DNA of 43,556 bases, taken from positions 1 to 43,556 of the forward strand of contig CATLBH010000021.1 in assembly GCA_949878745.1 (NCBI GenBank), in the 5' to 3' direction. The notes beneath the pieces are model-generated. The model searched no databases, was not told the DNA's origin, and saw only the letters and a program-made list of their open reading frames with translations. The stretch comes from an uncultured Ruminiclostridium sp. GTDB taxonomy: Bacteria > Bacillota > Clostridia > Oscillospirales > Ruminococcaceae. Numbering within the stretch: the stretch's first letter is position 1; each line of letters starts with the position of its first letter. This document shows positions 2,748-42,542 of this stretch, piece by piece. The position numbers and the translations under genes were made by a program.

Positions 2748-4484
2748 ATGACAAATATAATAACCGGATACGTATCTTATTTCAAACAAGACCCCGCCCG
2801 TCTTATGCCCCGCTTAATCACCGCATGGCTTTTTGTATCCCAAATATATCTTATTTTTATCCCGGAACCCTTTAATTCCCTTAGCTTTTTTCCGAAAAAC
2901 GGCTTCGCCGCGTTTCTTTTATTTCTGCTGACAGCTTTTGCCGCTCTCTGTGCCATTAGGAACGAGAAGGCGATAAACCTTCTTATGATATCCGCCGCTT
3001 TTACATATTGTATTGCCGCGGTATCGGAATATTCCGAAATGTATTTCATATTGGGCTGCTCTGTGATAATTGCGGCGGTGGTACACTTTTCAAAAATTTC
3101 CGATATAAAATTTTCGGTATCCGCCAAAACCCTTTGGCTTACGGGAATACTGCTTATCCTTCTGTTTACGGCGGCGGTGGGCACGGTCTGCTGCCTGAAA
3201 TATAAAAACCACTGGACGCCCTGTTATGATTTCGGAATTTTCGCCCAAATGTTCCGATATATGAGGGAAACGGGGCTTCCTATGACTACCTGCGAGCGGG
3301 ACGGGCTATTGTCCCACTTCGCGGTGCATTTTTCCCCGATATTTTATTTGCTGCTGCCTTTTTATATGCTGATTCCGTCTCCCTTGACGCTTTTATTGGG
3401 GCAGTGCCTGGTTTCGGCGTCGGGCGTGATACCCCTTATCTTAATATGCGGGAATCATAAGCTTTCCAACCTTTCCGCGGCAATATTCGCCTTGTGCTAT
3501 ACACTTTATCCCGCATTTGCGGGAGGCTGCGGCTTTTATCTTCACGAAAACAATTTTCTGGCGCCGCTGATAATGTGGCTGATTTATTTTTTTGAGAGGG
3601 ACAAGCTTGTACCGATACTTGTTTTCGGTTTTCTTACCCTCGCTGTAAAGGAGGACGCCGCCGTTTATACGGCGATAGTTTCGTTGTATTTTATTTTTGC
3701 TCGTAAAAACTACAGATGTAGTGTTTACTTGCTTGTTATATCGATAACTTACTTTATGGCGATAACTTACTTTCTTTCCTCCCATGGTGACGGAGTGATG
3801 ACGGGGAGATACGATAATTACATATACGACGAAAGCGGGCTTTTCGCGGTAATAAAGGCGGCGCTACAAAACCCGCTTTACGCCGTACAGCAATCGCTGA
3901 ACCAAGATAAAATAAAATATATTCTTCAAATGCTTCTGCCGCTGATGTTTATGCCTTTGCGCCCCAAAAGCGCCGAACGCCTGCTACTGCTTCTTCCTTT
4001 TATTCTCGTAAATATAACGACCAATTATGTTTATCAGTATGATATATATTATCAGTACGGTTTCGGAAGCGGCGCGATACTTATATATCTTTCCGTAATA
4101 AATTACGGGGATATGGGCGGCGAAAGGAAAAAATCCCTTCTGTGCGCGGCGCTGTGTTCCGCGTTGGTTTTTCTGGGTACCTTCGGCGGAAGGCTGAACT
4201 ATTTGGGATATTATGGAAGGAGCGCTGAGGAAAGGGCAATTATAGATAAAGCTATCGGGCTTGTTCCCGAAGACGCTTCCGTCGCCTGCTGTACGTTTCT
4301 GCTTCCCAATATGTATTATATAGAGGAGCTTTACCAGCTGGAGAGTACCGAAAACGAAGCGGAGTATTATGTAGTGGATTTCAGAATCGAAAGCGATCAG
4401 TACAGTGCCGAGGATTTTGCGGGGAAGGAATTTGAGGCGGTGTTTTATGAGGAAGGGATTGTGGGAGTTTTCAGAAAGGTTTAA
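2748..4484 (+). CDS. DUF2079 family polytopic membrane protein
   Basis: A 578-aa membrane protein with about ten hydrophobic segments and a soluble C-terminal tail of about 90 residues. It carries the DUF2079 signature: 'YDFGIFAQ' near residue 160, then an 'HF...HFSPIFYLLLPFYMLIPSP' block, 'LHENNFLAPL', and the tail 'VPEDASVACCTFLLP'. The family resembles GT-C fold glycosyltransferases, but its substrate is unknown. AAAGGAAAAA precedes the ATG. Two BlaI-type palindromes flag the gene, one in front and one inside it (3709). The TAA stop is also the target duplication of a MITE. Confidence 0.85.
   Translation: MTNIITGYVSYFKQDPARLMPRLITAWLFVSQIYLIFIPEPFNSLSFFPKNGFAAFLLFLLTAFAALCAIRNEKAINLLMISAAFTYCIAAVSEYSEMYFILGCSVIIAAVVHFSKISDIKFSVSAKTLWLTGILLILLFTAAVGTVCCLKYKNHWTPCYDFGIFAQMFRYMRETGLPMTTCERDGLLSHFAVHFSPIFYLLLPFYMLIPSPLTLLLGQCLVSASGVIPLILICGNHKLSNLSAAIFALCYTLYPAFAGGCGFYLHENNFLAPLIMWLIYFFERDKLVPILVFGFLTLAVKEDAAVYTAIVSLYFIFARKNYRCSVYLLVISITYFMAITYFLSSHGDGVMTGRYDNYIYDESGLFAVIKAALQNPLYAVQQSLNQDKIKYILQMLLPLMFMPLRPKSAERLLLLLPFILVNITTNYVYQYDIYYQYGFGSGAILIYLSVINYGDMGGERKKSLLCAALCSALVFLGTFGGRLNYLGYYGRSAEERAIIDKAIGLVPEDASVACCTFLLPNMYYIEELYQLESTENEAEYYVVDFRIESDQYSAEDFAGKEFEAVFYEEGIVGVFRKV
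3709..3722 (+). promoter_or_regulatory. BlaI-type palindrome inside the DUF2079 gene (site 3)
   Basis: ACTAC-AGAT-GTAGT with the same A-rich left flank as sites 1 and 2, about 960 bases into the coding region. It could be an auxiliary operator or roadblock, or chance. Confidence 0.45.
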
Positions 4485-4683
4485 GAAACTGTTCCAATAG
4501 AAATTGGCGCGCGCCTTTTCGGTATATTTTGCCGCCGATTTTGGGCAAATTACCAATACATCGTGTGTTAAAAATCCTTGACGGGCTTATCGCGTAAGCT
4601 GCCTTCCTGCGGATTTTTGCCTTCTCATCAACAAAATATGCTCGAAAATCCGCACACCATTTTTATCTTATTGGAACAGTTTC
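4485..4683 (+). mobile_element. MITE copy 1 (199 bp), TSD TAA
   Basis: Begins GAAACTGTTCCAATA and ends TATTGGAACAGTTTC, a perfect 15-bp terminal inverted repeat, and is flanked on both sides by TAA (4482-4484, 4684-4686). It encodes nothing. The left TAA is the stop codon of the DUF2079 gene. The right TAA is shared with hairpin element A. A second copy lies at 5225-5539. Confidence 0.88.
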
Positions 4684-4686
4684 TAA

Positions 4687-4737
4687 TACTAATCTTTGGT
4701 CAGATTATATACAAAAAATGTTGACCAAAGATTGGTA
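4687..4737 (+). mobile_element. TWA hairpin element A (51 bp)
   Basis: Ends TACTAATC and GATTGGTA, flanked by TAA on both sides (4684-4686, 4738-4740). It has a single stem AATCTTTGGTCA pairing with TGACCAAAGATT. It is a short member of the family at 5342, 10259, 30183, 40121, 42326 and 42448, and abuts MITE copy 1. Confidence 0.7.
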
Positions 4738-4749
4738 TAAATCAACAAT

Positions 4750-5202
4750 TTAACATTCTATCCATATCCCTTCGTCATGCACTCCCGTCCCCTCTATGGA
4801 ACGGTAAAATTTCTGCGCGTCATAGTTGTCGGCTATTAAGGCTATGAGAGTGTCCACCTTATACTCGTTTTTAAGAACTTTTCTCAACTCCGCCAAAAGA
4901 CTTTGGGCGATTTTCTTATGGCGAAAATCCTTGAGAACGCATATCCAGTCGAGATACGCCTTCACGGAGCCGTCAAAATGGCTGCAAATCAGCGCGGAAT
5001 CTATGCGCCCAACCACTATGCCGTTTATGTAAGCGAGAAGCGAGACGGAATTGCGGAATTTCTGATCTTCAAAGCTGTTTCTTATGTCCATCAGGTAGTT
5101 GTCGTCGATATCGGGGGTCCAGAAATTTTCGTCCTTTCTTAATGCCAGCTCAAATTGTATCACATCGTCTATTCGGTTTTTTGTAAAGCGCTTGATCTCC
5201 AT
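4750..5202 (-). CDS. GNAT family N-acetyltransferase
   Basis: A 150-aa single-domain acetyltransferase of the GNAT fold. The acetyl-CoA binding motif A region is 'VLKDFRHKKIAQSLLAELRK' near residues 88-107, preceded by beta strands ('LLAYINGIVVGRIDSALI', 'YLDWICV') and followed by 'DTLIALIADNYDAQKFYRSIE', typical of the C-terminal half. The substrate cannot be told. A strong AAAGGAGG site lies 7-14 bases before the ATG. It is downstream of the PatB-type gene on the same strand, with MITE copy 2 between them, so the pair may once have been a simple operon. Confidence 0.82.
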   Translation of the reverse strand: MEIKRFTKNRIDDVIQFELALRKDENFWTPDIDDNYLMDIRNSFEDQKFRNSVSLLAYINGIVVGRIDSALICSHFDGSVKAYLDWICVLKDFRHKKIAQSLLAELRKVLKNEYKVDTLIALIADNYDAQKFYRSIEGTGVHDEGIWIEC

Positions 5203-5288
5203 TTTTGTCCTCCTTTATCGTTTAGAAACTGTTCCAATAGGAATTGGCGCGCGTCTTTTCGGCATATTTTGCCGCTGACTTGCGTTTT

Positions 5289-5338
5289 GTCATTTGCCCA
5301 AAGTCGGCGCATCCTTGCGCCGACTTTGGGCAAATGAC
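5289..5338 (+). repeat. Perfect 23-bp hairpin inside MITE copy 2
   Basis: Bases 5289-5311 and 5316-5338 are exact reverse complements with the 4-base loop TCCT. MITE copy 1 retains only the right arm (TTTTGGGCAAAT), so the left arm and loop appear deleted there. It has no T-tract, so a terminator role is uncertain. Confidence 0.85.
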
Positions 5339-5341
5339 TAA

Positions 5342-5414
5342 TACTAATCCCTATTTAAACTGTTGGATTAGTATTAAACTGTGGGTATTACGTCAGTTTA
5401 AAAGGGGATTGGTA
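5342..5414 (+). mobile_element. TWA hairpin element B, nested in MITE copy 2
   Basis: Ends TACTAATCC and GGATTGGTA, flanked by TAA (5339-5341, 5415-5417). It has an inner stem ACTAATCC/GGATTAGT and a longer imperfect stem from AATCCCTATTTAAACTG to CAGTTTAAAAGGGGATT. The matching place in MITE copy 1 reads through without it, which makes this a clean filled/empty site pair. Confidence 0.78.
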
Positions 5415-5539
5415 TAACACATCGTGTGTTAAAAATTCTTGACGGGCTTATCGCGTAAGCTGCCCGCCTGCGGATTTTTGCCTTGTCATCAACAAAATAT
5501 GCTCGAAAATCCGCACACCATTTCTATTGGAACAGTTTC

Positions 5540-6709
5540 TTATTTTTTTATCGCCTGTTTCATTCTGTCGGCCGCTTCTATAAGCAAAACCCTCGGACAG
5601 GCGGTATTGACTCTTATAAAGCCTTCGCCTCCATTTCCGAATATGGCTCCGTTATGTACCCTTACTTTTGCGTTCTTAAGGAAATATTCCTCAAGATCGT
5701 TTTCCTCGGGCAAAGCCTGTCGGCAGTCTATCCAGGCGAGATAGGTGCCCTCAGGTTCGATGAGCGAAATTTTTTCTTCCTTTGGAAAAGCCCTTCTGAG
5801 TACGTCGAAGTTCCCCTTTATGTATTCCAGAAGTCCGTCCAGCCATTCCTCGCCGTGATTATAAGCCGCTTTTACCGCCGCTGCCGCCATAACGTTAAGT
5901 TCGCAGCCGAAGGTGGCCTCGCAGGCTTCGCCGACCTTTCGGCGAAGCTCGGGATTGGCGATGATTATGTTTGCCGCCTGTATGCCCGCTATGTTGAATG
6001 TCTTTGTGGGGGAGGTACAGGTAACGGTAATATCCGACAGCTCCTCCGAAAGCGAAGCGATGGGCAGATGGGGACGGCCGCAGAAAACGAAATCCGAATG
6101 AATCTCGTCGGAAATGATCTTTACATTGTGCTTTAAGCAGATTCTGCCCAACTCGGTAAGCTCTTCTTTCGTCCACACTCTCCCGGCGGGATTGTGGGGA
6201 GAGCAGAGCAAAAACAGTTTTACCGCGTTTTCTTTTATTTTTTGTTCAATATCCTCAAAATCCGGCTCGTACCTGCCTTCTATAAGTTTTAGTTCGGATA
6301 TTACGGTACGGCGGCGGTTGCTTTCTATCAGCCGGGCAAAAGGGTGATAAACCGGCTGACAGATAAGCACGCCGTCTCCCTTTTCGCTTAAAGCTCTTAC
6401 CGCGGCGGCTATGGCGAACAGCACGCCGGGAGCCTTTATAATCCAAGACTCTTTTATATCCCAGTTCATTCTGCGTCCGTACCAGCCGATCACCGATTTT
6501 TCATAATCCCCGTCCACGATGCCGTATCCGAATATGCCGTGCTCAACCGTTTTTTTCAGCGCTTCGCGAATGGCGGGCGCCACCTTAAAATCCATATCCG
6601 CCACCCATAGCTGTATAACGTCGGGGTCGTCGGGAAAACAGTCGTATTTTAATGAATTTGTCCCTCTGCGCTTATGTACCGTATCAAAAAAAGAATCATC
6701 AATTTCCAT
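5540..6709 (-). CDS. patB: PatB/MalY-type PLP-dependent C-S lyase/aminotransferase
   Basis: A 389-aa class I/II aminotransferase-fold enzyme of the MalY/PatB group (cystathionine beta-lyase type). Visible marks are the N-terminal 'FDTVHKRRGTNSLKYD' and 'LWVADMDF' typical of this subgroup, 'CSPHNPAGRVW', the PLP-contacting 'SDEIHSDFVF' near residues 200-210, and the Schiff-base lysine in 'SPTKTFNIAG' at about residue 235. Members cleave cystathionine or other cysteine S-conjugates to a thiol, pyruvate and ammonia, and some act as regulators. Length is normal. It has its own promoter (6745-6773, minus strand). Its stop codon coincides with the MITE copy 2 target duplication. The exact substrate is inferred. 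Confidence 0.88.
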   Translation of the reverse strand: MEIDDSFFDTVHKRRGTNSLKYDCFPDDPDVIQLWVADMDFKVAPAIREALKKTVEHGIFGYGIVDGDYEKSVIGWYGRRMNWDIKESWIIKAPGVLFAIAAAVRALSEKGDGVLICQPVYHPFARLIESNRRRTVISELKLIEGRYEPDFEDIEQKIKENAVKLFLLCSPHNPAGRVWTKEELTELGRICLKHNVKIISDEIHSDFVFCGRPHLPIASLSEELSDITVTCTSPTKTFNIAGIQAANIIIANPELRRKVGEACEATFGCELNVMAAAAVKAAYNHGEEWLDGLLEYIKGNFDVLRRAFPKEEKISLIEPEGTYLAWIDCRQALPEENDLEEYFLKNAKVRVHNGAIFGNGGEGFIRVNTACPRVLLIEAADRMKQAIKK

Positions 6710-6744
6710 AATTTTTTACCTTTCCTTGTAATTATTACATTATA

Positions 6745-6773
6745 ATTGTAACATTAACAAATTGTTTTGTCAA
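6745..6773 (-). promoter_or_regulatory. Promoter of the patB-type gene
   Basis: On the minus strand: TTGACA (6773-6768), 17-bp spacer, TACAAT (6750-6745), about 35 bases before the ATG. Confidence 0.65.
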
Positions 6774-6813
6774 CCCGTTTGTGAAAAACCTTGTATAAAA
6801 ACCTTGCTTAACC

Positions 6814-6842
6814 TTGACAAAAACCCGCCGATATGGTAAAAT
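6814..6842 (+). promoter_or_regulatory. Promoter of thyX and the following run
   Basis: TTGACA (6814-6819), 17-bp spacer ending in TGG (extended -10), TAAAAT (6837-6842). It is the clear start of the large plus-strand cluster. Confidence 0.8.
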
Positions 6843-6911
6843 AATTTGAATGATAAAGGTCATATCGTTTTTGATATGACTTTTTGTAATTAAACCGATA
6901 GGAGAAGCCTT

Positions 6912-8288
6912 ATGGAGCATAAGTCACAGGCGAGAATTATAAGCTTTAATTACGATAACACCGCCATTTGCGCAGGCGCGGCCAGAATATCCACCACCGA
7001 GGGGGATTCAGACGCCGTGTTTGAAAAATCCAAAAACAATCCCAACAACGAAAAGCTGATAAAAAAGGTGCTGAAATCTGGTCACCGTTCCACCGTGGAA
7101 CACGCGGTGTTTACGCTGTCCATGCGCAACGTGTCCGTTTACGCGGAACAGTTTTTCATAGAGTTCCGACTTGCCTCCTTTACCGTTAAATCCAGACGTT
7201 ACGTGGATTTTACCCAACAGGGCTATTACATACCGAAGGATTTGTCCGCCGACGGGCTTGATTTTTACCGCCGATATATGGATTTGCTCTTTGAGGGTTA
7301 TCAAAGGCTTCTGCAAAACGACGTTCCCAAGGAGGACGCGCGCTTTTTGCTCCCTTACTCCTTTAACAGTAATTTTTACTGTACCCTGAACGCCCGCGAG
7401 CTGATAAACCTGATACGCGCCGCGAAATACGGAAGGGGAAAGGAAATTCCCGAGCTTAACGATTTGGCGGATCAGATAATCCAACAAATAAAGGAAATTT
7501 TCCCCTGTATTCTTGACGAAATAACCCCCCCGCCCTTCCGAGGGGATGAAGCGTCCCAAGGCGGCGAGCGCCGCATTGCACCAATGTCCGAAGAACCGAT
7601 TTTTTGTACCGAAAGCGAGGTGGGGGCGGTGGAAATGCTCGGCTCTCCCGCCGACCCGAAAAGATTGCTGGAAGCGGCGTACAAGACTTGCTCCCCCCTG
7701 TCCGATTTTCCTTCGGATATGGGAGAAACGGTTCTTTCCCCCCGCCCAAGAGAGCTGGAGCAGCTTAACTATACCTTTTGCGTATGCGATGTCACCTTGT
7801 CGGGAATAACCCATCTGGTGCGCCACCGTATGCAGTCCATAATCATTCCCCCCATACAGACCGCCGATTTCGGCCGTTACATTATGCCCCGATCCATAGC
7901 GAATAACGAAAAAGCGTCGGCAATATATCTTGAAACCGTCTCAAAGGCTCATAAAGCCCTAATATCGGCTCGGGAAAACGGCGAGCTGACTAAATATATT
8001 TATTATTTCGCTTTAAGCGGAAATTTAATGAACGTGATGACTACCATGAACGCGAGAGAATTGCTTTTGTTTATTCGGCTGAGAACCTGTAACCGCGCTC
8101 AGTGGGAGGTTAAAAATGTCGCTCTTCGTATGCTTAAGCTTCTCAGGGGGCACTTTCCCGAGCTGTTCGGCCTTTACGGCCCCAGCTGTTACATAAGCGG
8201 CGTTTGCCCCGAAGGTGATAAGAGCTGCGGGAAAATAAAAGAGGTAAAGGAAAAATTTTCGGGGCGCGGCTCCGAAGCGCTTATATGA
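6912..8288 (+). CDS. thyX: ThyX-like flavin-dependent thymidylate synthase, two-module form
   Basis: A 458-aa protein, about twice the usual ThyX length (around 220-250 aa), that reads as two ThyX-like halves. The N-terminal half has 'GHRSTVEHAVFTL' (residues 57-69) and 'EFRLASFTVKSRRYV' (84-98). This aligns with the ThyX signature RHRxxSxxxxSxRY but with EFR in place of RHR. The C-terminal half has an intact 'LVRHRMQS' (RHR near 303-305) but lacks the following Ser-x-Arg part. A segment around residues 195-255 links them. ThyX makes dTMP from dUMP with methylene-tetrahydrofolate and FAD; its active sites form between subunits, so complementary halves could form a pseudo-dimer. SD GGAGAAG precedes the ATG. 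Activity as a thymidylate synthase is likely but unproven. Confidence 0.8.
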   Translation: MEHKSQARIISFNYDNTAICAGAARISTTEGDSDAVFEKSKNNPNNEKLIKKVLKSGHRSTVEHAVFTLSMRNVSVYAEQFFIEFRLASFTVKSRRYVDFTQQGYYIPKDLSADGLDFYRRYMDLLFEGYQRLLQNDVPKEDARFLLPYSFNSNFYCTLNARELINLIRAAKYGRGKEIPELNDLADQIIQQIKEIFPCILDEITPPPFRGDEASQGGERRIAPMSEEPIFCTESEVGAVEMLGSPADPKRLLEAAYKTCSPLSDFPSDMGETVLSPRPRELEQLNYTFCVCDVTLSGITHLVRHRMQSIIIPPIQTADFGRYIMPRSIANNEKASAIYLETVSKAHKALISARENGELTKYIYYFALSGNLMNVMTTMNARELLLFIRLRTCNRAQWEVKNVALRMLKLLRGHFPELFGLYGPSCYISGVCPEGDKSCGKIKEVKEKFSGRGSEALI

Positions 8289-8336
8289 AAAACAACCGTA
8301 AATAAATGACACAAGCGAGAACGAAAGGAATAAAAA

Positions 8337-9737
8337 TTGTCAGTAAGAACAATCACACCCGAAGAGCTTAAAGAACAGGAAATTTACTCCCGAAAGGTTC
8401 GCTCCGTAACTCACACCTTCTTTGAAAAGCCCTGCGCCTATGTTCACACCTACGGCTGTCAGCAGAACGTTTCCGACGGCGAAAAGCTTAAAGGAATGTT
8501 GGAAGAAATGGGCTACGACTTTACCGACGATATGGAAAAGGCCGCGCTGATACTGTTCAACACCTGCGCCGTAAGAGAAAACGCCGTGGACAGGGTTTTC
8601 GGGAACGTGGGGGCGTTAAAGCGCCTTAAAAAGAAAAATCCCGATATGGTCATAGCCGTTTGCGGCTGTATGGTGCAGCAGGAGGAAACAGCCCGTAAAA
8701 TGAAAAGCACCTTTCCTTTCGTGGATATAATTTTCGGTACCCACGTGCTGCATAAATTTCCGGAGCTTTTGTGCCGACATCTGCTGGGCGGCGCAAGAAT
8801 ACTGGAAATACCCTACTGCGACGGCGTTATTGCCGAAAATCTGCCGTTAAAAAGGGAAAGCGGCTTTAAAGCGAGCGTTCCCATAATGTACGGCTGTAAC
8901 AACTTCTGCACCTACTGCGTGGTACCTTTGGTAAGGGGAAGAGAACGCTCAAGAAACGCGGAGGATATCATATCCGAGGTAAAAGAACTGGTAAAGGGCG
9001 GGTATAAGGATATCCTTCTTTTGGGGCAAAACGTAAACTCCTACGGAAAAGGCACCGATACCGACTTTCCCGAGCTTTTGTCAAGGCTGGACAGGCTGAA
9101 AGGGGAGTTTAAAATAGAGTTTATGACCTCGCACCCAAGAGACTGCACCCAAAGACTGATAGACGTAATAGCCGACAGCGAAAAAATCTGTCATCATCTT
9201 CATCTTCCGGTACAGTGCGGAAGCGACAGAATCCTTAAGCTTATGAACAGGCATTATGACAGGGCGCGCTATCTTGCCCTTGTGGATTATGCCCGAAAAA
9301 GGATTCCCGACCTTAACCTTACCACCGATATAATAGTTGGTTTTCCGGGGGAAACAAGGGAGGACTTCGAGCAGACTCTCGATCTTATGAGAAAAGTTCG
9401 CTTTGATTCCGCCTTTACGTTTATTTACAGTCCCCGCTTGGGAACAAAGGCGGCGGATATGGAGGATCCCGTGACCGCCGATGAAAAAGGAAAGTGGTTC
9501 AGAGAGCTTCTCGAGGTTCAGGGCGAATGCGGCAGCGAAAGCTATCGGAAATACGTGGGAAAAACCTTAAGAGTGCTCTGCGAGGGAAAGGGAAGAACCT
9601 CCGAGACGTATTTTACGGGAAAATCGAGAGAGAATATTATCGTCGATTTTAACGGCGGCGAAAAAGATATCGGAACCTTTGTGTCCGTCAGAATAACCGA
9701 GGCCAAAGCCTGGGCGCTGATAGGCGAAAAGTTATGA
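8337..9737 (+). CDS. miaB: tRNA-2-methylthio-N6-dimethylallyladenosine synthase MiaB
   Basis: A 466-aa radical-SAM methylthiotransferase that converts i6A37 to ms2i6A37 in tRNAs. The N-terminal cluster-binding domain has cysteines in 'TYGCQQNVSD', 'FNTCAVREN' and 'CGCM'. The radical-SAM CxxxCxxC is 'CNNFCTYC' near residues 187-194, followed by 'LLLGQNVNSYG'. A TRAM RNA-binding domain occupies the last 65 residues. The start is TTG, with GAAAGGAA at a good distance. MiaA, which makes its substrate, is encoded 5 kb downstream in the same cluster. Confidence 0.95.
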   Translation: MSVRTITPEELKEQEIYSRKVRSVTHTFFEKPCAYVHTYGCQQNVSDGEKLKGMLEEMGYDFTDDMEKAALILFNTCAVRENAVDRVFGNVGALKRLKKKNPDMVIAVCGCMVQQEETARKMKSTFPFVDIIFGTHVLHKFPELLCRHLLGGARILEIPYCDGVIAENLPLKRESGFKASVPIMYGCNNFCTYCVVPLVRGRERSRNAEDIISEVKELVKGGYKDILLLGQNVNSYGKGTDTDFPELLSRLDRLKGEFKIEFMTSHPRDCTQRLIDVIADSEKICHHLHLPVQCGSDRILKLMNRHYDRARYLALVDYARKRIPDLNLTTDIIVGFPGETREDFEQTLDLMRKVRFDSAFTFIYSPRLGTKAADMEDPVTADEKGKWFRELLEVQGECGSESYRKYVGKTLRVLCEGKGRTSETYFTGKSRENIIVDFNGGEKDIGTFVSVRITEAKAWALIGEKL

Positions 9738-9779
9738 TAAATGCATTAAAAAATTATAAAAAAGAAAGGTAAAAACAAA

Positions 9780-10190
9780 ATGGACGTTATTAAGGCAGCG
9801 AGAGAATTGGGAAGAGCGATACAAAACGACGAGCGCTACAAAGGCTATATGGAGGCAAAGCTTGAAAACGACAAGGACGAGGCCTTGCAGCAGCTTATCG
9901 GCGAATTCAATCTCAAGAGAGAAAATATGCAGCTTGAAATGGACAAGCCCGAGGGCGAAAGAGACAACGCCAAGCTGGAAAAATACAACAAAGAGCTTCA
10001 GGAATGCTACGAAAGAGTTATGGGAAACGCTCATATGGCCAATTTCGCCGTTATGAAAAACGCCCTCGACAACCTTTTGCAGGAGGTACAGGGCATTATC
10101 TCCCTTTGCTGCGACGGCGAGGATCCGGACACCTGTCAGGTTCGTCACAGCTGCACCTCCGACTGCTCCACCTGCGGCGGCTGTCACTGA
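9780..10190 (+). CDS. YlbF/YmcA family protein with Cys-rich tail
   Basis: A 136-aa, mostly helical protein of the YlbF/YmcA (RicF/RicA) family. Residues 1-108 are the helical domain. The last 28 residues contain eight cysteines ('CC', 'TCQVRHSC', 'CSTCGGC'). In Bacillus subtilis, YmcA, YlbF and YaaT form a complex that carries iron-sulfur clusters and assists RNase Y-dependent mRNA maturation; terminal cysteines are ligands there. Its position between miaB and mutS matches ymcA. Shine-Dalgarno AAAGAAAGG is present. The exact paralogue is not assigned. Confidence 0.82.
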   Translation: MDVIKAARELGRAIQNDERYKGYMEAKLENDKDEALQQLIGEFNLKRENMQLEMDKPEGERDNAKLEKYNKELQECYERVMGNAHMANFAVMKNALDNLLQEVQGIISLCCDGEDPDTCQVRHSCTSDCSTCGGCH

Positions 10191-10258: not shown

Positions 10259-10361
10259 TACCAATCTTTAATCAAGTTGCAGACTTGATTAAAGATTGCA
10301 CCCTAAGCACTCATCTTTGATCCCCCGTATTATTTGTCTATAGTCTGATCAAAGATTAGTA
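10259..10361 (-). mobile_element. TWA hairpin element C (103 bp)
   Basis: Flanked by TTA on both sides (10256-10258, 10362-10364). It has two arms: AATCTTTAATCAAG/CTTGATTAAAGATT (perfect 14 bp) and ATCTTTGATC/GATCAAAGAT, joined by GCACCCTAAGCACT. That joint is the reverse complement of the AGTGCTTTGGGTG junction in element E, so C lies in the opposite orientation. Its loop ACTATAGACAAA (minus strand) is shared with F1. It separates ylbF from mutS. Confidence 0.78.
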
Positions 10362-29252: not shown

Positions 29253-30182
29253 ATGTCATTCGACCGACTTATAGAAAAGATCGCCAAGACCAATAATCCC
29301 ACCGTGGCGGGTCTCGATCCTAAATTAGACTACGTTCCCGATTTTCTTAAGAAAAAAGCCTTTGAAAAATACGGCGAGTCCTTAAAGGGCGCGGCAAAAG
29401 CGCTCCTTTGGTTCAACAAAGGCCTTATCGACGCCCTTTGCGATATTGTTCCCGCGGTAAAGCCCCAGGCTGCCTATTACGAAATGTATGGCTATTCCGG
29501 CTTGAAAACTCTTTATAAAACTCAGGAATACGCCCGTCAAAAGGGGATGTTCGTCATAACCGACGCCAAAAGAAACGACATAGGCACCACCATGGAAGCC
29601 TACGCCATAGGTCATCTGGGAAAAGTGAGAGTCGGGGCGGAAGAGTACGAGCCTTTTCTGGGCGATGCCCTCACCGTAAACGGATATTTGGGAAGCGACG
29701 GGATAAATCCCGTTATTAAGGTTTGTAAACAGTACGACAAGGGTATGTTCGTCCTTGCCAAAACATCCAACCCCTCTTCGGGGGAATTGCAGGATATGAA
29801 GATAGGCGACCGCGCGGTTTACGAGGTTATGGGCGATATGTGCGAGGAATGGGGAAAGGAGCTGCCGGGAAAATACGGCTACAGCGGCGTGGGAATAGTT
29901 GCGGGCGCTACATACCCCCAACAGATAGAGATTTTAAGAAAAAGACTCCCCCACACCTTCTTCCTTATCCCCGGCTACGGAGCGCAGGGCGCGAGCGCCA
30001 AGGATATAGCCGCCGCCTTTGACGAAAGAGGTCTGGGCGGAATAGTGAACAGCTCGAGAGGAATTATGTGCGCTTATCAAAAGGAAAAATGCGACGAAAA
30101 GGATTACGCGGAAGCGGCGCGGAGAGAGGCCGTCCGTATGCGCGACGAAATAATGGGCTTTGTTAACAAAATACGTATTTAA
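29253..30182 (+). CDS. pyrF: Orotidine 5'-phosphate decarboxylase, type 2
   Basis: A 309-aa enzyme making UMP, of the longer type 2 form. The catalytic Asp-Lys-x-x-Asp cluster is in 'VITDAKRNDIGTTMEAYA' near residues 105-122. 'GLDPKLDYVPDF' and 'IPGYGAQGAS' flank it. SD AAAGAAAGGAAG. Its TAA stop is also the left target duplication of hairpin element D. Confidence 0.94.
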   Translation: MSFDRLIEKIAKTNNPTVAGLDPKLDYVPDFLKKKAFEKYGESLKGAAKALLWFNKGLIDALCDIVPAVKPQAAYYEMYGYSGLKTLYKTQEYARQKGMFVITDAKRNDIGTTMEAYAIGHLGKVRVGAEEYEPFLGDALTVNGYLGSDGINPVIKVCKQYDKGMFVLAKTSNPSSGELQDMKIGDRAVYEVMGDMCEEWGKELPGKYGYSGVGIVAGATYPQQIEILRKRLPHTFFLIPGYGAQGASAKDIAAAFDERGLGGIVNSSRGIMCAYQKEKCDEKDYAEAARREAVRMRDEIMGFVNKIRI

Positions 30183-30239
30183 TTTATCTTTAATCAGCAA
30201 TCAGCGGTTCCCCGAACACAGCCCGATTAAAGATCGGTA
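30183..30239 (+). mobile_element. TWA hairpin element D (57 bp)
   Basis: Flanked by TAA on both sides (30180-30182, the pyrF stop, and 30240-30242). The stem ATCTTTAATC pairs with GATTAAAGAT; the right end CGGTA matches the family GGTA end, while the left end TTTATC is degenerate. It lies between pyrF and carA and would be part of a joint transcript. Confidence 0.62.
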
Positions 30240-30269
30240 TAAGTACACATTGGAAAGGAATAAGGAAAA

Positions 30270-35115: not shown

Positions 35116-35122
35116 TAAAAGC

Positions 35123-35190: not shown

Positions 35191-35206
35191 GGAGGAGATA
35201 GATTAA

Positions 35207-35977: not shown

Positions 35978-36018
35978 ATCTGAGCTTTACGATTTACCGT
36001 TTAAAGAAAGGAAAGACG

Positions 36019-36792: not shown

Positions 36793-37724
36793 GCGAAAGC
36801 GTTATAAAATGCAAAAAAGACTTGTCCGTTACGGTAGCGGGCGTGAAATTCCCCAACCCCGTAATAGCCGCTTCGGGTACCTACGGCTTCGGACAGGATT
36901 ACACCGATCTTTATCCCCTAAACATTTTAGGTGGAATTTCCTGCAAGGGAACCACCATAAACCCCAAAGACGGGAACCCCGCTCCCCGAATAGCGGAAAC
37001 TCCCGCGGGAATGCTCAACTCGGTGGGACTGCAAAACCCCGGCGTAGACGTATTTATTTCCGAACACCTTCCCAAGGCCAAAAGAGACGGCAATATAATT
37101 ATCGCCAACATCGCGGGAGCAACCCTCGACGATTACAGGGCGGTGGCGGAAAAGCTCGAGGATACCGACGTGGATATGATCGAGCTGAACATCTCCTGTC
37201 CCAACGTAAAACAGGGCGGCGCCAGCTGGGGGATTACCTGCGACGGAGCGGCGACGGTAACAAAAGCGGTACGCGCGGTAACGAAAAAGCCCCTTATGGT
37301 AAAGCTTACCCCCAACGTCACCAACATAACCGAAATAGCGAAGGCGGCCGAAGCGGAGGGCGCCGACTGTCTTTCTCTTATAAATACCTTGCTGGGTATG
37401 AGAATAGATATAAAGACAAGAAGACCCATTCTGAAAAACAACGTGGGCGGCTTTTCCGGACCCGCCGTTTTTCCGGTGGCGGTAAGAATGGTGTGGCAGG
37501 TGGCGAACGCCGTGGGTATAGACGTAGTGGGTCTTGGCGGGATCACCACGGCCGAGGACGCGGTGGAAATGATGATGGCGGGCGCAAAGGCGGTACAGGT
37601 AGGCACAGCCATCTTTACCGACCCTTACGCGCCCGTCAAAATAATAAAAGGCCTTGAAAGGTATATGGAGGAAAATAACCTTAATTCGCTTGAAGAAATT
37701 GTGGGGACGGTTCGGCCATGGTAA
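36789..37724 (+). CDS. pyrD: Dihydroorotate dehydrogenase class 1B, catalytic subunit
   Basis: A 311-aa FMN TIM-barrel oxidising dihydroorotate to orotate. 'NPVIAASGTYGFG', 'LNSVGLQNPGVD' and 'ELNISCPNVKQGG' (with the catalytic Cys typical of class 1) and 'LVGLGGITTAEDAVEMMMAGAKAVQVGTA' (landmark: about residues 236-265) are visible. Pairing with pyrK defines class 1B (NAD-linked). Confidence 0.96.
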   Translation: MSESVIKCKKDLSVTVAGVKFPNPVIAASGTYGFGQDYTDLYPLNILGGISCKGTTINPKDGNPAPRIAETPAGMLNSVGLQNPGVDVFISEHLPKAKRDGNIIIANIAGATLDDYRAVAEKLEDTDVDMIELNISCPNVKQGGASWGITCDGAATVTKAVRAVTKKPLMVKLTPNVTNITEIAKAAEAEGADCLSLINTLLGMRIDIKTRRPILKNNVGGFSGPAVFPVAVRMVWQVANAVGIDVVGLGGITTAEDAVEMMMAGAKAVQVGTAIFTDPYAPVKIIKGLERYMEENNLNSLEEIVGTVRPW

Positions 37725-38386
37725 CTAAGCTTTATCTTATTAGACACTGCGAAGCCTTGGGCAACATAAACGACACCTTTCAGGGGAGCATTGACGAGGA
37801 TATCACCGAAAAGGGGCAAAGACAGCTTGACAATCTGGCCGAAAGATGTAAAGACATACCCTTTGACGTCATCTATTCCTCTCCCCTTATACGCGCCCTG
37901 AAAACCGCACAGGCGGCCAACAGACATCACGGCCTTGAAATAATTACCGATCCCGCCTTTACCGAGATAAACGGCGGGGAATTCGAGGGGGTAAAATGGG
38001 ACGAGCTTCCCGTTTTATTCCCCGATACATATTTTAAATGGAGAAACGATTTTGCCAAGTTCGCCACCGAAAAGGGCGAATCAATGACCGACGTATACCG
38101 TCGGGTTTCTTTGGGAGCAATGAAGGCGGTACGGGAAAATAAAGGCAGAACCGTACTTATCGTCTCTCACGGCTGTGCAATAAGAAATCTGTGCTGTTAT
38201 CTGAGAGGACTTCCCTTGGAGGAAATAGGCGGCTGTGAATGGGTGGATAACACGGGAATATGCCGTTACGATTTTGACGAGGATTTAAACCCCGCCGAAA
38301 TATTTGTCAACGACTGCGCCCACATTATGAACGACCCCTCCACCGCGCCGCACCAATTATTCTGGAGAAACAAAAATTCCCGGTAG
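37718..38386 (+). CDS. Histidine phosphatase (phosphoglycerate-mutase) family protein
   Basis: A 222-aa protein. The catalytic motif is 'LIRHCEALGNINDTFQG' (RHC instead of the usual RHG), then 'YSSPLIRALKTAQ', a mid-domain 'EINGGEFEGVKW' and the second His in 'LIVSHGCAIRNL'. Such enzymes remove phosphate from sugar, nucleotide or cofactor precursors; substrate unknown. It overlaps pyrD by 7 bases, so it is probably coexpressed with pyrimidine synthesis. Confidence 0.87.
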   Translation: MVTKLYLIRHCEALGNINDTFQGSIDEDITEKGQRQLDNLAERCKDIPFDVIYSSPLIRALKTAQAANRHHGLEIITDPAFTEINGGEFEGVKWDELPVLFPDTYFKWRNDFAKFATEKGESMTDVYRRVSLGAMKAVRENKGRTVLIVSHGCAIRNLCCYLRGLPLEEIGGCEWVDNTGICRYDFDEDLNPAEIFVNDCAHIMNDPSTAPHQLFWRNKNSR

Positions 38387-38392
38387 ATTTTT

Positions 38393-38881
38393 TTATCTGC
38401 AAACGGGTTTTATCACCCCACAGGCGATTTTTTCACCCGCGTTACCCGAAGGCTGAGTCGTAAAATCATCGGGCATAGAGTGTATTATAACGGTTTTTCC
38501 CGATATCTCCGCGACGTTGAATTTATCGGTGAGAAATACCAGAACCGCTTTTCCCTCCGCGTTAAAAAGCGGCGGCATATCACCCGCGTGACAGGGATGT
38601 TGACAGTTGTCGGGATTATAATGACCGTCCGCTTTGGCAAACGGATCGGACTTGTCTCCTTTGCACTCGGTACCCGAATGAATATGAAAACCCAAAAACG
38701 GATTTGTACAGGAACCGCATTTTTGGGGCAGGCAGTCTATTTCGGCGTGAACCAATACGCCTCCGCATACACGGTGAAACATAACCTTCCCTTTTATGCG
38801 CGGATATTTATCACTACCGCATATGCAAGCCTCCGCGTCGGGCTTGTTTCTGAGAGCCGATATAATATCAAAATTTTCCAT
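38393..38881 (-). CDS. Cu/Zn superoxide dismutase-like protein, cytosolic
   Basis: A 162-aa Cu/Zn SOD-family protein. 'GFHIHSGTEC' supplies the HxH copper ligands, then 'GHYNP' and 'CQHPCHAGDMPPL' hold the bridging/zinc histidines and Asp, and 'VIIHSMPDDF' the last copper His. It ends 'SGNAGEKIACGVI', the family C-terminus. No signal peptide is present, unlike most bacterial SodC, and the chain has about ten cysteines, including 'CICG' and 'CLPQKCGSC'. The usual active-site-loop Arg could not be confirmed by eye. It converges with the histidine phosphatase (6-base gap). Confidence 0.8.
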   Translation of the reverse strand: MENFDIISALRNKPDAEACICGSDKYPRIKGKVMFHRVCGGVLVHAEIDCLPQKCGSCTNPFLGFHIHSGTECKGDKSDPFAKADGHYNPDNCQHPCHAGDMPPLFNAEGKAVLVFLTDKFNVAEISGKTVIIHSMPDDFTTQPSGNAGEKIACGVIKPVCR

Positions 38882-38956
38882 AGTTGTTTTTCCTTTCTTA
38901 CGATGTATTATTATAAGTATATGCCGATAAGAAAAATAGTGTTAAGGCGGTGTTTT

Positions 38957-39466
38957 ATGGACATAAATTTTTGTACAAGGTGCGGGAGTAAGCTTATTTT
39001 AAAGGAAATCGGCGACGAAGGCAATCAAAAATACTGTGAAAAATGCGATAAATATTATTTTAATAATCCCGTTCCATGTGTCCTTGTATTGATTTTAAAT
39101 CAATACAAGGAAGTCCTTCTCCTGAAGCAAAGCTATATAGTCAAAGACAAACGGACATTATGCAGCGGTTATCCGAAGAAAGAAGAAACCCTTGAAGAAA
39201 CGGTATCGAGAGAGGTTTTTGAGGAAACGGGACAAATCGTAGAATCCTGCGATTACATTAAAAGCTACTATTTTGCCCCCAAAAATCTGATTATGGCGGG
39301 GTTTATAGCTTATGTAAGCAAAAAAGAATTCGGAAACTCAAAAGAGGTTGACGATTTAAAGTGGGCAAGCCTGGAAACGGCGGGAGAACTGCTCGCAAGA
39401 GAAAACAACTTATCCGGCAAACACTTTGACGAATGCGCCGCGTTTTTAAAAGGAGAACAAGCTTGA
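38957..39466 (+). CDS. NUDIX hydrolase with zinc ribbon
   Basis: A 169-aa protein. An N-terminal four-cysteine zinc ribbon ('CTRCGSK' and 'CEKCDKYYF', residues 5-34) precedes a NUDIX domain with the full box 'GYPKKEETLEETVSREVFEETGQI' (landmark: residues 74-97; G-x5-E-x7-RE-x2-EE-x-G). This layout resembles NudC-type NADH/NAD-capped RNA hydrolases, though it is shorter. ATG 38957 is chosen because the ribbon follows at once; the longer upstream frame runs antisense through the SOD gene. It overlaps the HD gene by 4 bases. Confidence 0.85.
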   Translation: MDINFCTRCGSKLILKEIGDEGNQKYCEKCDKYYFNNPVPCVLVLILNQYKEVLLLKQSYIVKDKRTLCSGYPKKEETLEETVSREVFEETGQIVESCDYIKSYYFAPKNLIMAGFIAYVSKKEFGNSKEVDDLKWASLETAGELLARENNLSGKHFDECAAFLKGEQA

Positions 39467-40032
39467 GAAACGACATTACGGAATACCTGAAATCCGAACT
39501 TCGCCGCAGATGCGAAAGCCACTCCAATAAATTCGGCATTGGCATTTACGACCACATAAAAGCCGTGGCGAAAAACGCGGAGCAGCTCTCCCGACAGCTT
39601 GGTGCCGACGAGGAAATCACGGTTATCGCCGCGTGGCTCCATGATATCGCGTCGGTTACGGATTATAATCTGTACGAAAATCACCATATCCACGGAGCGG
39701 AGATGGCAAGGGAAATATTAAGCGGTTTTGATTACGACAAGGAAAAAATAAAACAAGTATGCGATTGCATAAAAAATCATCGCGGAAGCGTTATTATCGG
39801 TAAATCCACCCCCGAAGAGATATGCGTTGCCGACGCCGATGCCGTTTCGCATTTCGACAGCGTTCCGAGCCTTCTGTATCTTGCTTTTTCGGTAAAAGGA
39901 ATGAGCTATGAAGAAGGAGTGGAATTTGTGGTAAACAAGCTGAAAAGAAGCTATGCCAAGCTTTCCGATAAAAGCAGGGTTTTTTACAAAGAAAAATACT
40001 ACCGCGCAATGGAATTTTTTGGAGTTGTATAA
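39463..40032 (+). CDS. HD-domain phosphohydrolase
   Basis: A 189-aa HD-superfamily protein. His 31 ('YDHIKAV'), 'WLHDIAS' (H60-D61), 'NHHIHGAE' and a downstream 'ADADAVSHFDS' supply metal ligands. Such proteins hydrolyse nucleotides or phosphate esters. The start is TTG at 39463, with AAAGGAG 7 bases upstream and overlapping the NUDIX stop (TTGA), so the two are cotranslated. The functional pairing of two nucleotide-type hydrolases is suggestive only. Confidence 0.85.
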   Translation: MRNDITEYLKSELRRRCESHSNKFGIGIYDHIKAVAKNAEQLSRQLGADEEITVIAAWLHDIASVTDYNLYENHHIHGAEMAREILSGFDYDKEKIKQVCDCIKNHRGSVIIGKSTPEEICVADADAVSHFDSVPSLLYLAFSVKGMSYEEGVEFVVNKLKRSYAKLSDKSRVFYKEKYYRAMEFFGVV

Positions 40033-40093
40033 GCAAATAACAACAGATTACCCCACAATGAATCTGAGGGGTAATCTGTTGTTATTTGCTTAT
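40029..40093 (+). repeat. Perfect 26-bp inverted repeat at the HD gene stop
   Basis: Bases 40029-40054 and 40068-40093 are exact reverse complements around a 13-base loop; the left arm includes the TAA stop. There is no T-tract, but it would make a very stable RNA hairpin and may end transcription or protect the mRNA end. Confidence 0.85.
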
Positions 40094-40120
40094 AGCACTA
40101 TAAATTTTTGCCGCGGCTTA

Positions 40121-40231
40121 TACTATTTTAAAATTAAAAAGATTGCAAAATTTAGTGGATAATTTGAAAATAGTGCTTTGGGTGTAATTTCATCTTAAAA
40201 AGGTTAGAACCTTGTTAAGATGAAATTAGTA
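40121..40231 (+). mobile_element. TWA hairpin element E (111 bp)
   Basis: Ends TACTATTTT and AAATTAGTA, flanked by TTA on both sides (40118-40120, 40232-40234). Arm 1 is ACTATTTTAAAATT/AATTTGAAAATAGT, the junction GCTTTGGGTGT, arm 2 AATTTCATCTTAA/TTAAGATGAAATT. The right TTA is the stop codon (TAA, minus strand) of the second BlaR1-like gene. Confidence 0.82.
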
Positions 40232-41581
40232 TTATACGTTTGAGGAGGGGAAGCTCTTGATAATTTCGGAACACTCGTTGAAATCGATAATTTGGAAATC
40301 GGCAAACTCAGGCATCTCATCTATCGGCTTGATCTTTCCGCTTTCGATATCCTCGATATACTTTTTCATTTGCTCCTCGCTGATTCTCGACGCCGGTGAA
40401 TCCTTTGCAACAGTGCCTCCGATAGATATGGTATCACCTTCGTGAAATTCAAATATCTCTATTTCGGAGGATCCGAGCAGGTTATCCGCTTCGTTGTCGG
40501 GAGAGGGAATATAATTTCCGTTTTCGTCGGGTATAAGTCTGCCTGCACGTTTGACCGTGCTTTCCGCGATATTTATATCGTTTCCGTCGGAATCCCGCAT
40601 ACTGTAATCGTAACCGGGGTTAGGATTCGGTTCGGGCACGGTGCGGCCGGGCGCGTTATCGGCGGACGTGGCAAAGGCTGCGGTGGTTCCTATAATAAGT
40701 GCGGAGGAAAGAGCAACGGTGAAAAAAGAAGCTTTTTTAAATTTCATAATAGATACTATCCTTTCTTCAGCGGCGTTTCCGCTGAAACTGTTAAACATCG
40801 GAGCGGCTTTGCTCCGATTTTCTTCCATGGCAATCAGCGCTTTTGCGTATCCGGCTTTTGCATCTTCGCCGAAATGCCGTATTGTCAGTTCGTCGCAAAC
40901 AAGCTCGATATCCCGATTAGCCAGAACATACATAACCCATACCAGCGGATTGAACCAATGCACGCATAACGTAGCAATAAGCAATACTTTTCTCGCGCTG
41001 TCAAATCTCCGTATATGTGTGTATTCGTGTTCAAGAACATATTCCGATATAATGGTATTGGACAAATCGTGCGTCTTTGGCAAAAGTATCACGGGTCGGA
41101 ATATTCCATAGGTAAGGGGAGAAGTGATCCTGTCGCACCGTCTTACCGATACATTGCGTTTAAGTCTGCGCTCTTTCAGCCAACCTTTGATAAAGTCGCT
41201 GTTATCGGGAATAGAGGTTTTAAATTCTCGGCAGCATTTCAAATACATCAGTATGAAAAACGACCCAGATATAAGAACCCCCGCCGCCCATATAACGTAG
41301 ATCAAGGGTATATCTACTGTCATATTTTCGCCGCTTTCGGCCGCGCTTATTATTTCGGGAGCAATTGACCGATTTTTTACGCCGCCTTTTTCCGAAACCG
41401 AAAAAATGCTGAACATAAACGGTACGGAAAAGGGAACAAGCAGTCTTATGACCGCCGTCTCCCAAAACAGCAAAAACGTTTTTTTGGGCAGACAGTTTAT
41501 CCACAAAGCGCGGACAATGATGCCGACTGCAATTATCAGCGCTCCCGCGAAGCTCATTTGCGCAAAAGTCATTTTTTTCAA
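40232..41581 (-). CDS. Second BlaR1-like M56 peptidase, no adjacent BlaI
   Basis: A 449-aa membrane protein. Hydrophobic segments lie near residues 7-27, 38-60, 90-112, 198-220 and 288-306. The zinc motif HEYTH is at 185-189 in 'VLEHEYTHIRRFDS', followed by 'WFNPLVWVMYVLANRDIELVCDE'. After the last membrane segment comes a 140-residue acidic extracytoplasmic tail rich in Asn, Pro, Asp and Glu; it is not a penicillin-binding domain, so it senses something else or nothing. SD AGAAAGG. No repressor gene is beside it, but its promoter contains a BlaI-type palindrome. Confidence 0.85.
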   Translation of the reverse strand: MKKMTFAQMSFAGALIIAVGIIVRALWINCLPKKTFLLFWETAVIRLLVPFSVPFMFSIFSVSEKGGVKNRSIAPEIISAAESGENMTVDIPLIYVIWAAGVLISGSFFILMYLKCCREFKTSIPDNSDFIKGWLKERRLKRNVSVRRCDRITSPLTYGIFRPVILLPKTHDLSNTIISEYVLEHEYTHIRRFDSARKVLLIATLCVHWFNPLVWVMYVLANRDIELVCDELTIRHFGEDAKAGYAKALIAMEENRSKAAPMFNSFSGNAAEERIVSIMKFKKASFFTVALSSALIIGTTAAFATSADNAPGRTVPEPNPNPGYDYSMRDSDGNDINIAESTVKRAGRLIPDENGNYIPSPDNEADNLLGSSEIEIFEFHEGDTISIGGTVAKDSPASRISEEQMKKYIEDIESGKIKPIDEMPEFADFQIIDFNECSEIIKSFPSSNV

Positions 41582-41619
41582 CCTTTCTTCTTATATATAA
41601 GACTGTAGTAGTGCACGCT

Positions 41620-41648
41620 TATATACTACAATAGTAGTGTGGAAGCAA
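41620..41648 (-). promoter_or_regulatory. Promoter of the second BlaR1-like gene
   Basis: On the minus strand: TTGCTT (41648-41643), 17-bp spacer, TATATA (41625-41620). The operator at 41625-41638 fills most of the spacer, so bound repressor would exclude RNA polymerase. Confidence 0.6.
41625..41638 (-). promoter_or_regulatory. BlaI-type operator (site 4)
   Basis: ACTAC-AATA-GTAGT, the same arms and spacing as site 1 near blaI. Further GTAGT/ACTAC half-sites lie at 41604-41612, suggesting a second weaker site. Confidence 0.65.
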
Positions 41649-41733
41649 CAGGACGGTAATGTGAAAAATAAGTGATTTTTCTTTTGTGTCAAAACCCTCA
41701 CAACGGCATAAACTGCTTGAGGGGGTTATAACA

Positions 41734-42258
41734 TTGATATTTGAAATTCTTTTATTGGTGGCTGCCTTATCGGTGGATTCACTGGCGGAAGCGGTCAGCT
41801 ACGGTCTGGCGAAAATAAAAATAGGGTTTACGCGTTCACTTTTAATAAGCATAATTTGCAGTTTGTTCCTTGTGTTTTCGGCCGCTTTTGCTGGGGTGAT
41901 CGGCGCTTACATAGATGAAAGGATCACTAAGACCGTGAGCTTTCTTATTCTTTTGGTCATAGGTATAATCAAGCTTATGGAGAAAGGGAAGAGCGAGTGT
42001 CCCGAAACACTGTCCGCCGCCAAAACGGTGATTTTTGCGGTATCTATGTCGGTGGACGGTCTCGCGGCGGGGTTCGGCGCGGGACTTACGGCGGAGGATA
42101 ATTTGTGGGCGGTGGGTGCCGCGGCGTGTTTTATTACATTTCTTACGGTGTTTTTTGGGAATATAGCGGGGCTGAAAGTGAATAAAAAAGCGCCGGCGGT
42201 GATGCAGAAAATTGGAGGGGCGGCTATTATTGCTGTTGGGGTGTGTAAGCTTATTTAA
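41734..42258 (+). CDS. MntP/YtaF family membrane protein
   Basis: A 174-aa protein with six hydrophobic segments in two threes. The repeated 'ALSVDSLAEAVSYGL' (residues about 11-25) and 'SMSVDGLAAGFGAGL' mark the MntP/YtaF superfamily; the Asp residues line the ion path in the manganese exporter MntP, while YtaF is a sporulation-associated relative. I cannot separate the two. The TTG at 41734, with GAGGGGG 8 bases upstream, is preferred over the GTG at 41686, which has no SD. It is divergent from the second BlaR1-like gene, across the operator. Confidence 0.8.
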   Translation: MIFEILLLVAALSVDSLAEAVSYGLAKIKIGFTRSLLISIICSLFLVFSAAFAGVIGAYIDERITKTVSFLILLVIGIIKLMEKGKSECPETLSAAKTVIFAVSMSVDGLAAGFGAGLTAEDNLWAVGAAACFITFLTVFFGNIAGLKVNKKAPAVMQKIGGAAIIAVGVCKLI

Positions 42259-42325
42259 ATTTTTAAAACAATCCGGTTGCTTTTTAAAAGCGGGCGGGTT
42301 GTTTTTTGCTCTCTCACTTGTTTAA

Positions 42326-42444
42326 TACTATTTGCAAATCATACTATAGACAAAAGACAAAAAAATTTGGAATGATTTGCAAATAGTGCTTTGGATGTAA
42401 TTTTTAATCAATCTGCTTGTCAACGGATTGATTAAAAATCAGTA
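42326..42444 (+). mobile_element. TWA hairpin element F1 (119 bp)
   Basis: Left flank TAA (42323-42325). Arm 1 ACTATTTGCAAATCAT/ATGATTTGCAAATAGT is a perfect 16-bp stem with loop ACTATAGACAAA, shared with element C. The junction is GCTTTGGATGT. Arm 2 ATTTTTAATCAATC/GATTGATTAAAAAT is a perfect 14-bp stem. It ends CAGTA, followed by TAT (shared with F2), the one junction that is not TWA. Confidence 0.78.
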
Positions 42445-42447
42445 TAT

Positions 42448-42539
42448 TACTAATCCCTTTTAAAACTGTTGGATTAGTGTTTCGGGTGCAACCCTTTTTA
42501 AACTATGGATTTTATCAATAGTTTAAAAAGGGATTGGTA
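42448..42539 (+). mobile_element. TWA hairpin element F2 (92 bp), tandem to F1
   Basis: Starts TACTAATCC and ends GGATTGGTA, right flank TAA (42540-42542). Arm 1 ACTAATCC/GGATTAGT, junction GTGTTTCGGGTGCA, arm 2 ACCCTTTTTAAACTAT/ATAGTTTAAAAAGGG. Confidence 0.78.
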
Positions 42540-42542
42540 TAA

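Follow-up and report, generated by a model that had tools for sequence, protein, structure and literature searches.

Why the stems of a set of short repeats should differ greatly in sequence and yet remain self-complementary in each copy is the question raised by this locus. The stretch of DNA that was analysed (the window: 43,556 nt, contig CATLBH010000021.1 of assembly GCA_949878745.1) carries seven such elements, assigned here to a TACTA family named after its tip. The window belongs to genome G000 (2,665,846 bases in 108 contigs), referred to below as the own genome. The answer that we favour, at roughly even chances of being right, is that the elements are miniature transposons moved by an IS630-like transposase and that their stems covary by hairpin-templated copying of one arm from the other. 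All seven elements, which had been listed in a sequence-only reading of the window, were confirmed by reading the letters and setting the ends:

4687 to 4737, plus strand: single hairpin, 51 bp, with TAA duplications at 4684-4686 and 4738-4740.
5342 to 5414, plus strand: single hairpin of the AATCCC type, 73 bp, nested inside another small element, with a TAA duplication.
10259 to 10361, minus strand: two hairpins, 103 bp, with a TAA duplication (minus strand) and the junction GAGTGCTTAGGGTG at 10299-10312.
30183 to 30239, plus strand: worn single hairpin, with a 3' TAA at 30240-30242.
40121 to 40231, plus strand: two hairpins, 111 bp, with a TTA duplication and the junction at 40171-40184.
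42326 to 42444, plus strand: two hairpins, 119 bp, with TAA at the left and the junction at 42384-42397.
42448 to 42539, plus strand: two hairpins, 92 bp, with TAA at the right and the junction at 42475-42488.

The self-complementarity ascribed to these elements is real: when folded as single-stranded DNA, each of the seven outperformed 200 of 200 shuffles (z values in coordinate order: -6.83, -4.23, -8.05, -3.48, -7.23, -8.47, and -6.65). The junction between two stem-loops that had been described for the longer copies was likewise recovered, and two hairpins, junction, and a match to the covariance model described below are combined only in the elements at 10259, 40121, 42326, and 42448; those at 4687, 5342, and 30183 are single hairpins. 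The element at 42448 mixes subtypes, its 5' hairpin being from one and its 3' hairpin from another. The proposed common end TACTAAT stood only in part: six elements begin with TACT, but the 5' tip of the element at 30183 is worn (TTTATC), those at 40121 and 42326 start with TACTATT, and the heptamer alone is not enriched (7 occurrences in the window vs 5.04 expected). The significance of the window elements rests on pairing and copy number, not on the tip heptamer. The 3-bp repeat reported outside the ends (TAA or TTA) is seen across the family as TNA, with the counts given below, but the joint between the elements at 42326 and 42448 is TAT, not TNA, and the open reading frame (ORF) ahead of the element at 30183 has that element's 5' TAA (30180-30182) as its stop codon. 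No Rfam model matched the window at gathering score.

Copy number was estimated with the junction TAGTGCTTTGGGTG, which matched the own genome 177 times at two or fewer mismatches (reversed control 17) and 98 times at one or none (reversed control 1). A scripted parse of the first 90 own loci together with the window gave 111 distinct junctions at two or fewer mismatches, a figure that includes chance matches and truncated copies. The elements are mostly 51-125 bp long and non-coding, and the long form reads TNA / TACTA-arm-loop-arm'-TAGTG YTTHGGG TG YAAT-arm-loop-arm'-RGTA / TNA. The junction spans 18 columns; in 149 distinct elements, 15 of these hold a single base in at least 93% of copies, and the remaining three vary (C/T, T/C/A, and T/C); this near-constancy is partly due to the junction being the search key. 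In many types the 29-bp terminal repeat, TACTA-N14-T(A/G)TAGACAAA, is in frame; the stem is formed by the first 16 bp of this repeat together with an inverted inner copy. The small-element end pattern matched the own genome 88 times (reversed control 0). Single-hairpin elements are mostly 50-57 bp, with equal duplications in 27 of 33 own rows, a few of which are alternative ends of one copy.

Target duplications were counted in 175 elements whose ends had been set by tips and pairing, with the flanks left unconsulted. The flanking trinucleotides were equal, and always TNA, in 148 (TAA 96, TTA 41, TGA 9, and TCA 2) and unequal in 27, and the fourth flanking base agreed in 46 of the 175, near one quarter. 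Clean nested insertions were found at L015 (an AATCCC-type element within the stem of another element) and at L014, and the empty site of the element at 5342 to 5414, GACTAACACATCG, is present in L065; empty sites derive from nested copies only. The duplications and nested copies show that the family is mobile, and its target duplication is 3 bp (TNA). The elements are short and non-coding, with terminal repeats, target duplications, and many dispersed copies, as expected of a miniature inverted-repeat transposable element, and the earlier description of a mobile, non-autonomous family with 3-bp TNA duplications was borne out.

Covariation of the stems was measured in 157 complete two-hairpin elements (91 own and 66 from relatives, with 63 distinct stem combinations), which had been picked by tips and junction and not by stem pairing; equal duplications were preferred where several ends were possible. 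Unpaired copies are not as common as paired ones: 120 of the 157 have all 12 positions of stem 2 paired, and full pairing of stem 1 is seen in 66 of the 87 long-stem elements vs 1 of the 70 elements whose type has a 5' stem of 8-9 bp. Along minimal spanning trees of distinct hairpins, double changes from one Watson-Crick pair to another numbered 15 in stem 1 and 38 in stem 2 (53 together), as against about 1.0 and 2.1 (approximately 3) expected if the two sides were independent and 0-2 in slid registers; the same trees held 56 and 50 single changes, and both bases had changed without pairing in 1 and 2 cases, respectively. Some tree edges connect unrelated subfamilies, and a stricter set was therefore formed from hairpins with loops at least 75% alike. 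In this set, 7 doubles and 22 singles remained for stem 1 of the long-stem types (null mean 0.25, maximum of 2000 runs 3), and 20 doubles and 43 singles for stem 2 (null mean 1.19, maximum of 2000 runs 6). The short 5' stem of the AATCCC type showed 0 doubles and 8 singles. When hairpin 2 was compared between nearest neighbours by the other hairpin (74 pairs), 22 doubles, 50 singles, and 6 unpaired doubles were counted. The earlier statement that stem sequence varies while pairing is kept is thus upheld by these counts.

Double changes also segregate among near-identical copies within genomes: G008, for instance, shows a change of TACTA/TAGT to TACTC/GAGT, and G001 one of an A-T to a G-C pair. 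An alignment of 16 diverse elements gave a covariation score of 0.632 (shuffles 0.174, slides 0.165 or less); these were hand-picked from tables showing pairing, and the score is illustrative. A larger alignment (141 rows) was kept out of the main evidence: at least 35 rows duplicate, from the other strand, elements that it already contains, some loci give one element repeatedly, and the alignment had been made to fit the structure. The notion that stems evolve faster than loops was rejected, the loops of hairpin 2 having changed at 0.057 per base and its stems at 0.024 singles per base plus 0.021 doubles per pair, and L036 was discarded as a double change, both of its arms having changed without matching. 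Separately, among three copies in G034 (L299, L308, and L316), the 3' stem of L316 differs from the other two by a block of several adjacent pairs while its loop is almost unchanged.

The most direct support for arm copying comes from another element of the same window:

5290 to 5337, plus strand: hairpin of an unrelated IS5-type small element, in which conversion has made the left arm exactly complementary to the right.

The own genome holds 28 copies of this hairpin that are otherwise exact to the search pattern; the left arm is imperfect in 24 and the exact complement in 4 (window 5290-5337 and, in G000, C8:39194, C22:38608, and C48:7310), the arm made complementary being 22 bp long. The four copies carry CCAAAGT where the 24 have TTTG(C/T)TGT or, once, TTTGTTTT, so that the conversion swaps a block of 8 bases for 7. 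The imperfect arm also occurs in G103 (L310), which indicates that the converted, perfect form is derived. The suggestion of hairpin-templated copying made from the letters of the window thereby gains direct support. Within the TACTA family, a 5-base loop is exactly inverted between L008 and L018 (AAGT-CTACG-ACTT to AAGT-CGTAG-ACTT), which fits template switching. Double changes are present in the long stems and absent from the short 5' stem (8 changes).

As to the source of mobility, an IS5-family helper of the IS1031 kind had been proposed as one candidate, TNA duplications being known for part of the IS5 family (IS1031-like). This proposal was not supported: none of the six own DDE_Tnp_1 (PF01609) loci has a TACTA...TATAGACAAA end, and a PF01609 search for IS5/IS4-type helpers across 10 genomes found such an end at 0 of 17 loci, although the bare tip TNA-TAC(T/C)A occurs near some of them (e.g., approximately 700 bases before the L203 gene). 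Of the own loci, two (L203 and L207) are bounded by AGAACCTGTACCAATAG ends, and no ends were found for the remaining four. The TACTA end adjoins IS630/DDE_3-type genes instead. In genome G001, the end TTA/TACTAATTGAATATCAAAATATAGACAAA stands before a two-frame IS630-type transposase (L220), the first frame of which matches HTH_33 and the second DDE_3 (E 1.3e-23). In the own genome, TAA/TACTAACAATCATTTAAAATATAGACAAA stands before a first ORF that is 43% identical to the first frame of L220; this locus (L245) lies at the edge of contig 12, with the DDE part beyond the contig end. The 29-bp end TACTA-N14-TATAGACAAA borders both loci, the own one being cut by the contig end and tied to IS630 by its first ORF only. 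A degenerate, nearly complete IS630-like copy (L232 in G017, 1113 bp) has TTA on both sides and the tips TACTA and TATTA, and is devoid of the TATAGACAAA box; L232 and L235 match the end tip only, not the whole TACTA end. Relatives of the first ORF were found in 4 of 71 genomes of the genus and of the second in 6 of 60. The TACTA ends are shared with IS630-type genes, and we infer that an IS630-like transposase moves the elements.

The proposed mechanism would run as follows. The elements would be miniature transposons mobilised in trans by an unusual IS630-like (DDE_3) subgroup, the transposase of which would recognise TACTA-N14-T(A/G)TAGACAAA ends and duplicate 3 bp (TNA). The mobile unit would be the hairpin, one hairpin alone making a complete short element and two fused via TAGTGYTTHGGGTGYAAT yielding the common long form. 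In most types the arms, of about 12-16 bp, would be spaced so closely that a mutation in one could at times be copied into its partner by intrastrand template switching during DNA synthesis; the stems would drift in sequence yet remain self-complementary, and new subfamilies would emerge. We infer that template switching, and not selection, is the main cause of covariation in the TACTA family. That the element copies its arms in the course of excising and repairing itself, such that each transposition can rewrite the terminal repeat from the inner arm, appears unlikely; if true, the ends would stay perfect while the sequence diversifies, and strong covariation would arise without selection on RNA.

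The strongest competitor, a serious possibility though less probable than arm copying, is selection: the transposition machinery or the host would need a folded single strand or a cruciform, only paired copies would spread, and compensatory changes would accumulate. The 16 hand-picked elements, with 98.2% of cells paired and changes on both sides in 21 of 29 pairs, agree with this explanation, and compensatory changes around the REPIN hairpin are called common in the available text of PMC3116915. Several observations speak against it. The commonest type among the complete copies (70 of 157) has a 5' stem of just 8-9 bp, the IS630-type loci L220 and L245 have ends without inner arms, and arm conversion occurs in an unrelated element too. 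In G055, small elements of approximately 150 bp (L211-L215) have the same 29-bp ends, a different middle, and no inner arms; closely spaced hairpins look dispensable for mobility because 4 of these 5 copies keep the ends with equal duplications. The stems give no sign of RNA-type wobble tolerance either (38 G-T/T-G cells vs 33 A-C/C-A cells). A third explanation, in which the transposase binds both arms as double-stranded DNA and a change of its specificity drags outer and inner arms along together, is improbable. The arms are indeed the first 16 bp of the terminal repeat, and in the AATCCC type (33 distinct elements) the match between the two outer ends (7.00 of 8 variable positions) exceeds that between the 5' end and its inner arm (4.45), but in the long-stem types (45 distinct elements) the outer ends are identical at only 5.09 of the 8 positions, as against 7.47 and 7.69 for the two ends and their respective inner arms. 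Equally little weight is given to module capture, in which each subfamily would have acquired its new hairpin independently, by way of the conserved junction, with no stepwise covariation. Elements of mixed type do exist (L082, L129, and the one at 42448 in the window), but this explanation is already weakened by the single paired changes that segregate among near-identical copies of one genome (G008, G001).

Arm copying by template switching, with an IS630-like helper, has to be set against a number of results that weigh on the other side. The four converted copies of the IS5-type hairpin may be one event spread by transposition, and only one loop inversion was found. Among nearest neighbours compared at hairpin 1 (31 pairs), there were 0 doubles, 26 singles, and 1 unpaired double. 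Copies in an intermediate state exist for 6 of 14 listed same-genome doubles (none for the other 8), a pattern also expected from stepwise change under selection. Of the 27 doubles of the strict set, 16 are transitions, a share near the 61.0% stated for instantaneous compensatory changes in ribosomal RNA in the accessible part of PMC8794818, so that the type of change does not separate copying from selection. With regard to the helper, the own genome yielded no candidate whose frame is intact or whose DDE domain is visible; the sole DDE_3 match there (L246) is a different element with no TACTA end in the displayed locus. The DDE_3 search was also negative in G016, G008, G049, and G055 (four of the six other small-element genomes tested), although G016 does carry a fragment of a transposase relative. 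Gene presence and copy number agree only partly: G017, G012, and G053 have transposase relatives and zero covariance-model matches.

A covariance-model search of the kind that had been recommended covered 71 genomes of one uncultured Clostridia genus; at E of 0.001 or less, the family was matched in 9 of them and in none of the other 62. At least 53 matches were obtained in both the own genome and G016 (lower bounds, 53 candidates having been scored per genome), followed by G001 (52), G036 (45), G008 (42), G049 (15), G055 (9), G034 (4), and G103 (4). Several G016 contigs (e.g., C10, C42, C136, and C153) begin with an element, and copy numbers from draft genomes may be underestimates. In a separate scan, the named relatives among the matches listed (at least 83 stretches) come from bins labelled uncultured Clostridia, Oscillospiraceae, Bacillota, and Ruminococcus, and from one labelled Bacteroides. 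Across 39 order-level genomes, the junction gave 11 matches vs 15 for the reversed control. In viral contigs, the element pattern gave nothing and the transposase query no relative; plasmids were rejected as carriers, all of the 849 matching plasmid records being less than 60% identical.

A TNA instead of a TA duplication sets the family apart from classical IS630/mariner elements. Miniature elements derived from IS630/Tc1/mariner exist as a kind, and the TACTA family resembles them in sharing its ends with an IS630-type transposase (the DDE_3 frame of L220), in having no space for a gene, and in its probable mobilisation in trans; it differs in its 3-bp TNA duplication (nested copies L014 and L015, empty site L065), in its inner-arm hairpins, and in its covarying stems. 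Small elements of the IS5/IS1031 group share the TNA duplication but have different terminal repeats, the own IS5-like ends resembling the AGAAACTG family. The hairpins of IS200/IS605 elements and integron attC sites serve single-strand recombination without target duplication, whereas target duplications are present here. REPINs are moved by a tyrosine (RAYT) transposase without target duplication. They are likewise small, non-coding, mobile hairpin units of high copy number with compensatory changes on both sides; the TACTA family differs in its 3-bp duplications, its terminal repeats of a DDE_3 element, and its two hairpins with a conserved linker, and no search was made for RAYT genes. The available text of PMC3116915 describes REPINs as paired REP hairpins tied to RAYT transposases. 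In the available sections of PMC7386202, a 2-bp TA duplication is called classical for Tc1/mariner, and 3-bp TAA duplications are given for Fot/pogo of the IS630-Tc1-mariner group, which are coding, 1.2-5.2 kb long, and described from eukaryotes. Fot/pogo thus provides a 3-bp TAA duplication within the same transposase group, while the TACTA family has paired hairpins and duplications with a variable middle base (TNA). Template switching has been described, in the accessible part of PMC8794818, as a source of multi-base compensatory changes and loop inversions in RNA genes; both are explained there, as here, by copying of arm from arm, but the present hairpins belong to transposons with no known RNA role. 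No report of IS630 elements with TNA or 3-bp duplications was found in the accessible parts of the open-licence literature, and the words IS630, hairpin, and compensatory are absent from the available text of a review of prokaryotic small elements (PMC10969869).

The findings point to a subgroup of bacterial IS630-type elements that duplicates 3 bp (TNA). Paired compensatory changes usually count as the strongest sign of a functional RNA, and here dispersed transposon copies, many of them near-identical within one genome, give the same signal. If copying is the cause, the family would be a natural system in which to tell selection and template switching apart, and RNA discovery by covariation should take it as a warning.

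Further features were observed near the elements. A second small-element family (window 4482-4685 and 5222-5542) has the ends AGAAACTGTTCCAATAG, which resemble those of the IS5-like loci L203 and L207, and flanks an ORF for a GNAT-type acetyltransferase (4750-5202); some copies of this family elsewhere (L023 and L063) hold a TACTA element at the same inner site. At 40018-40104, arms of 40 bp (88% complementary, 7 bases apart) overlap the end of an ORF that stops at 40032 and form either a terminator or another hairpin element. Inverted repeat blocks of approximately 330 bp (2157-2478 and 42539-42872), 79-96% complementary and 40 kb apart, represent a dispersed repeat.

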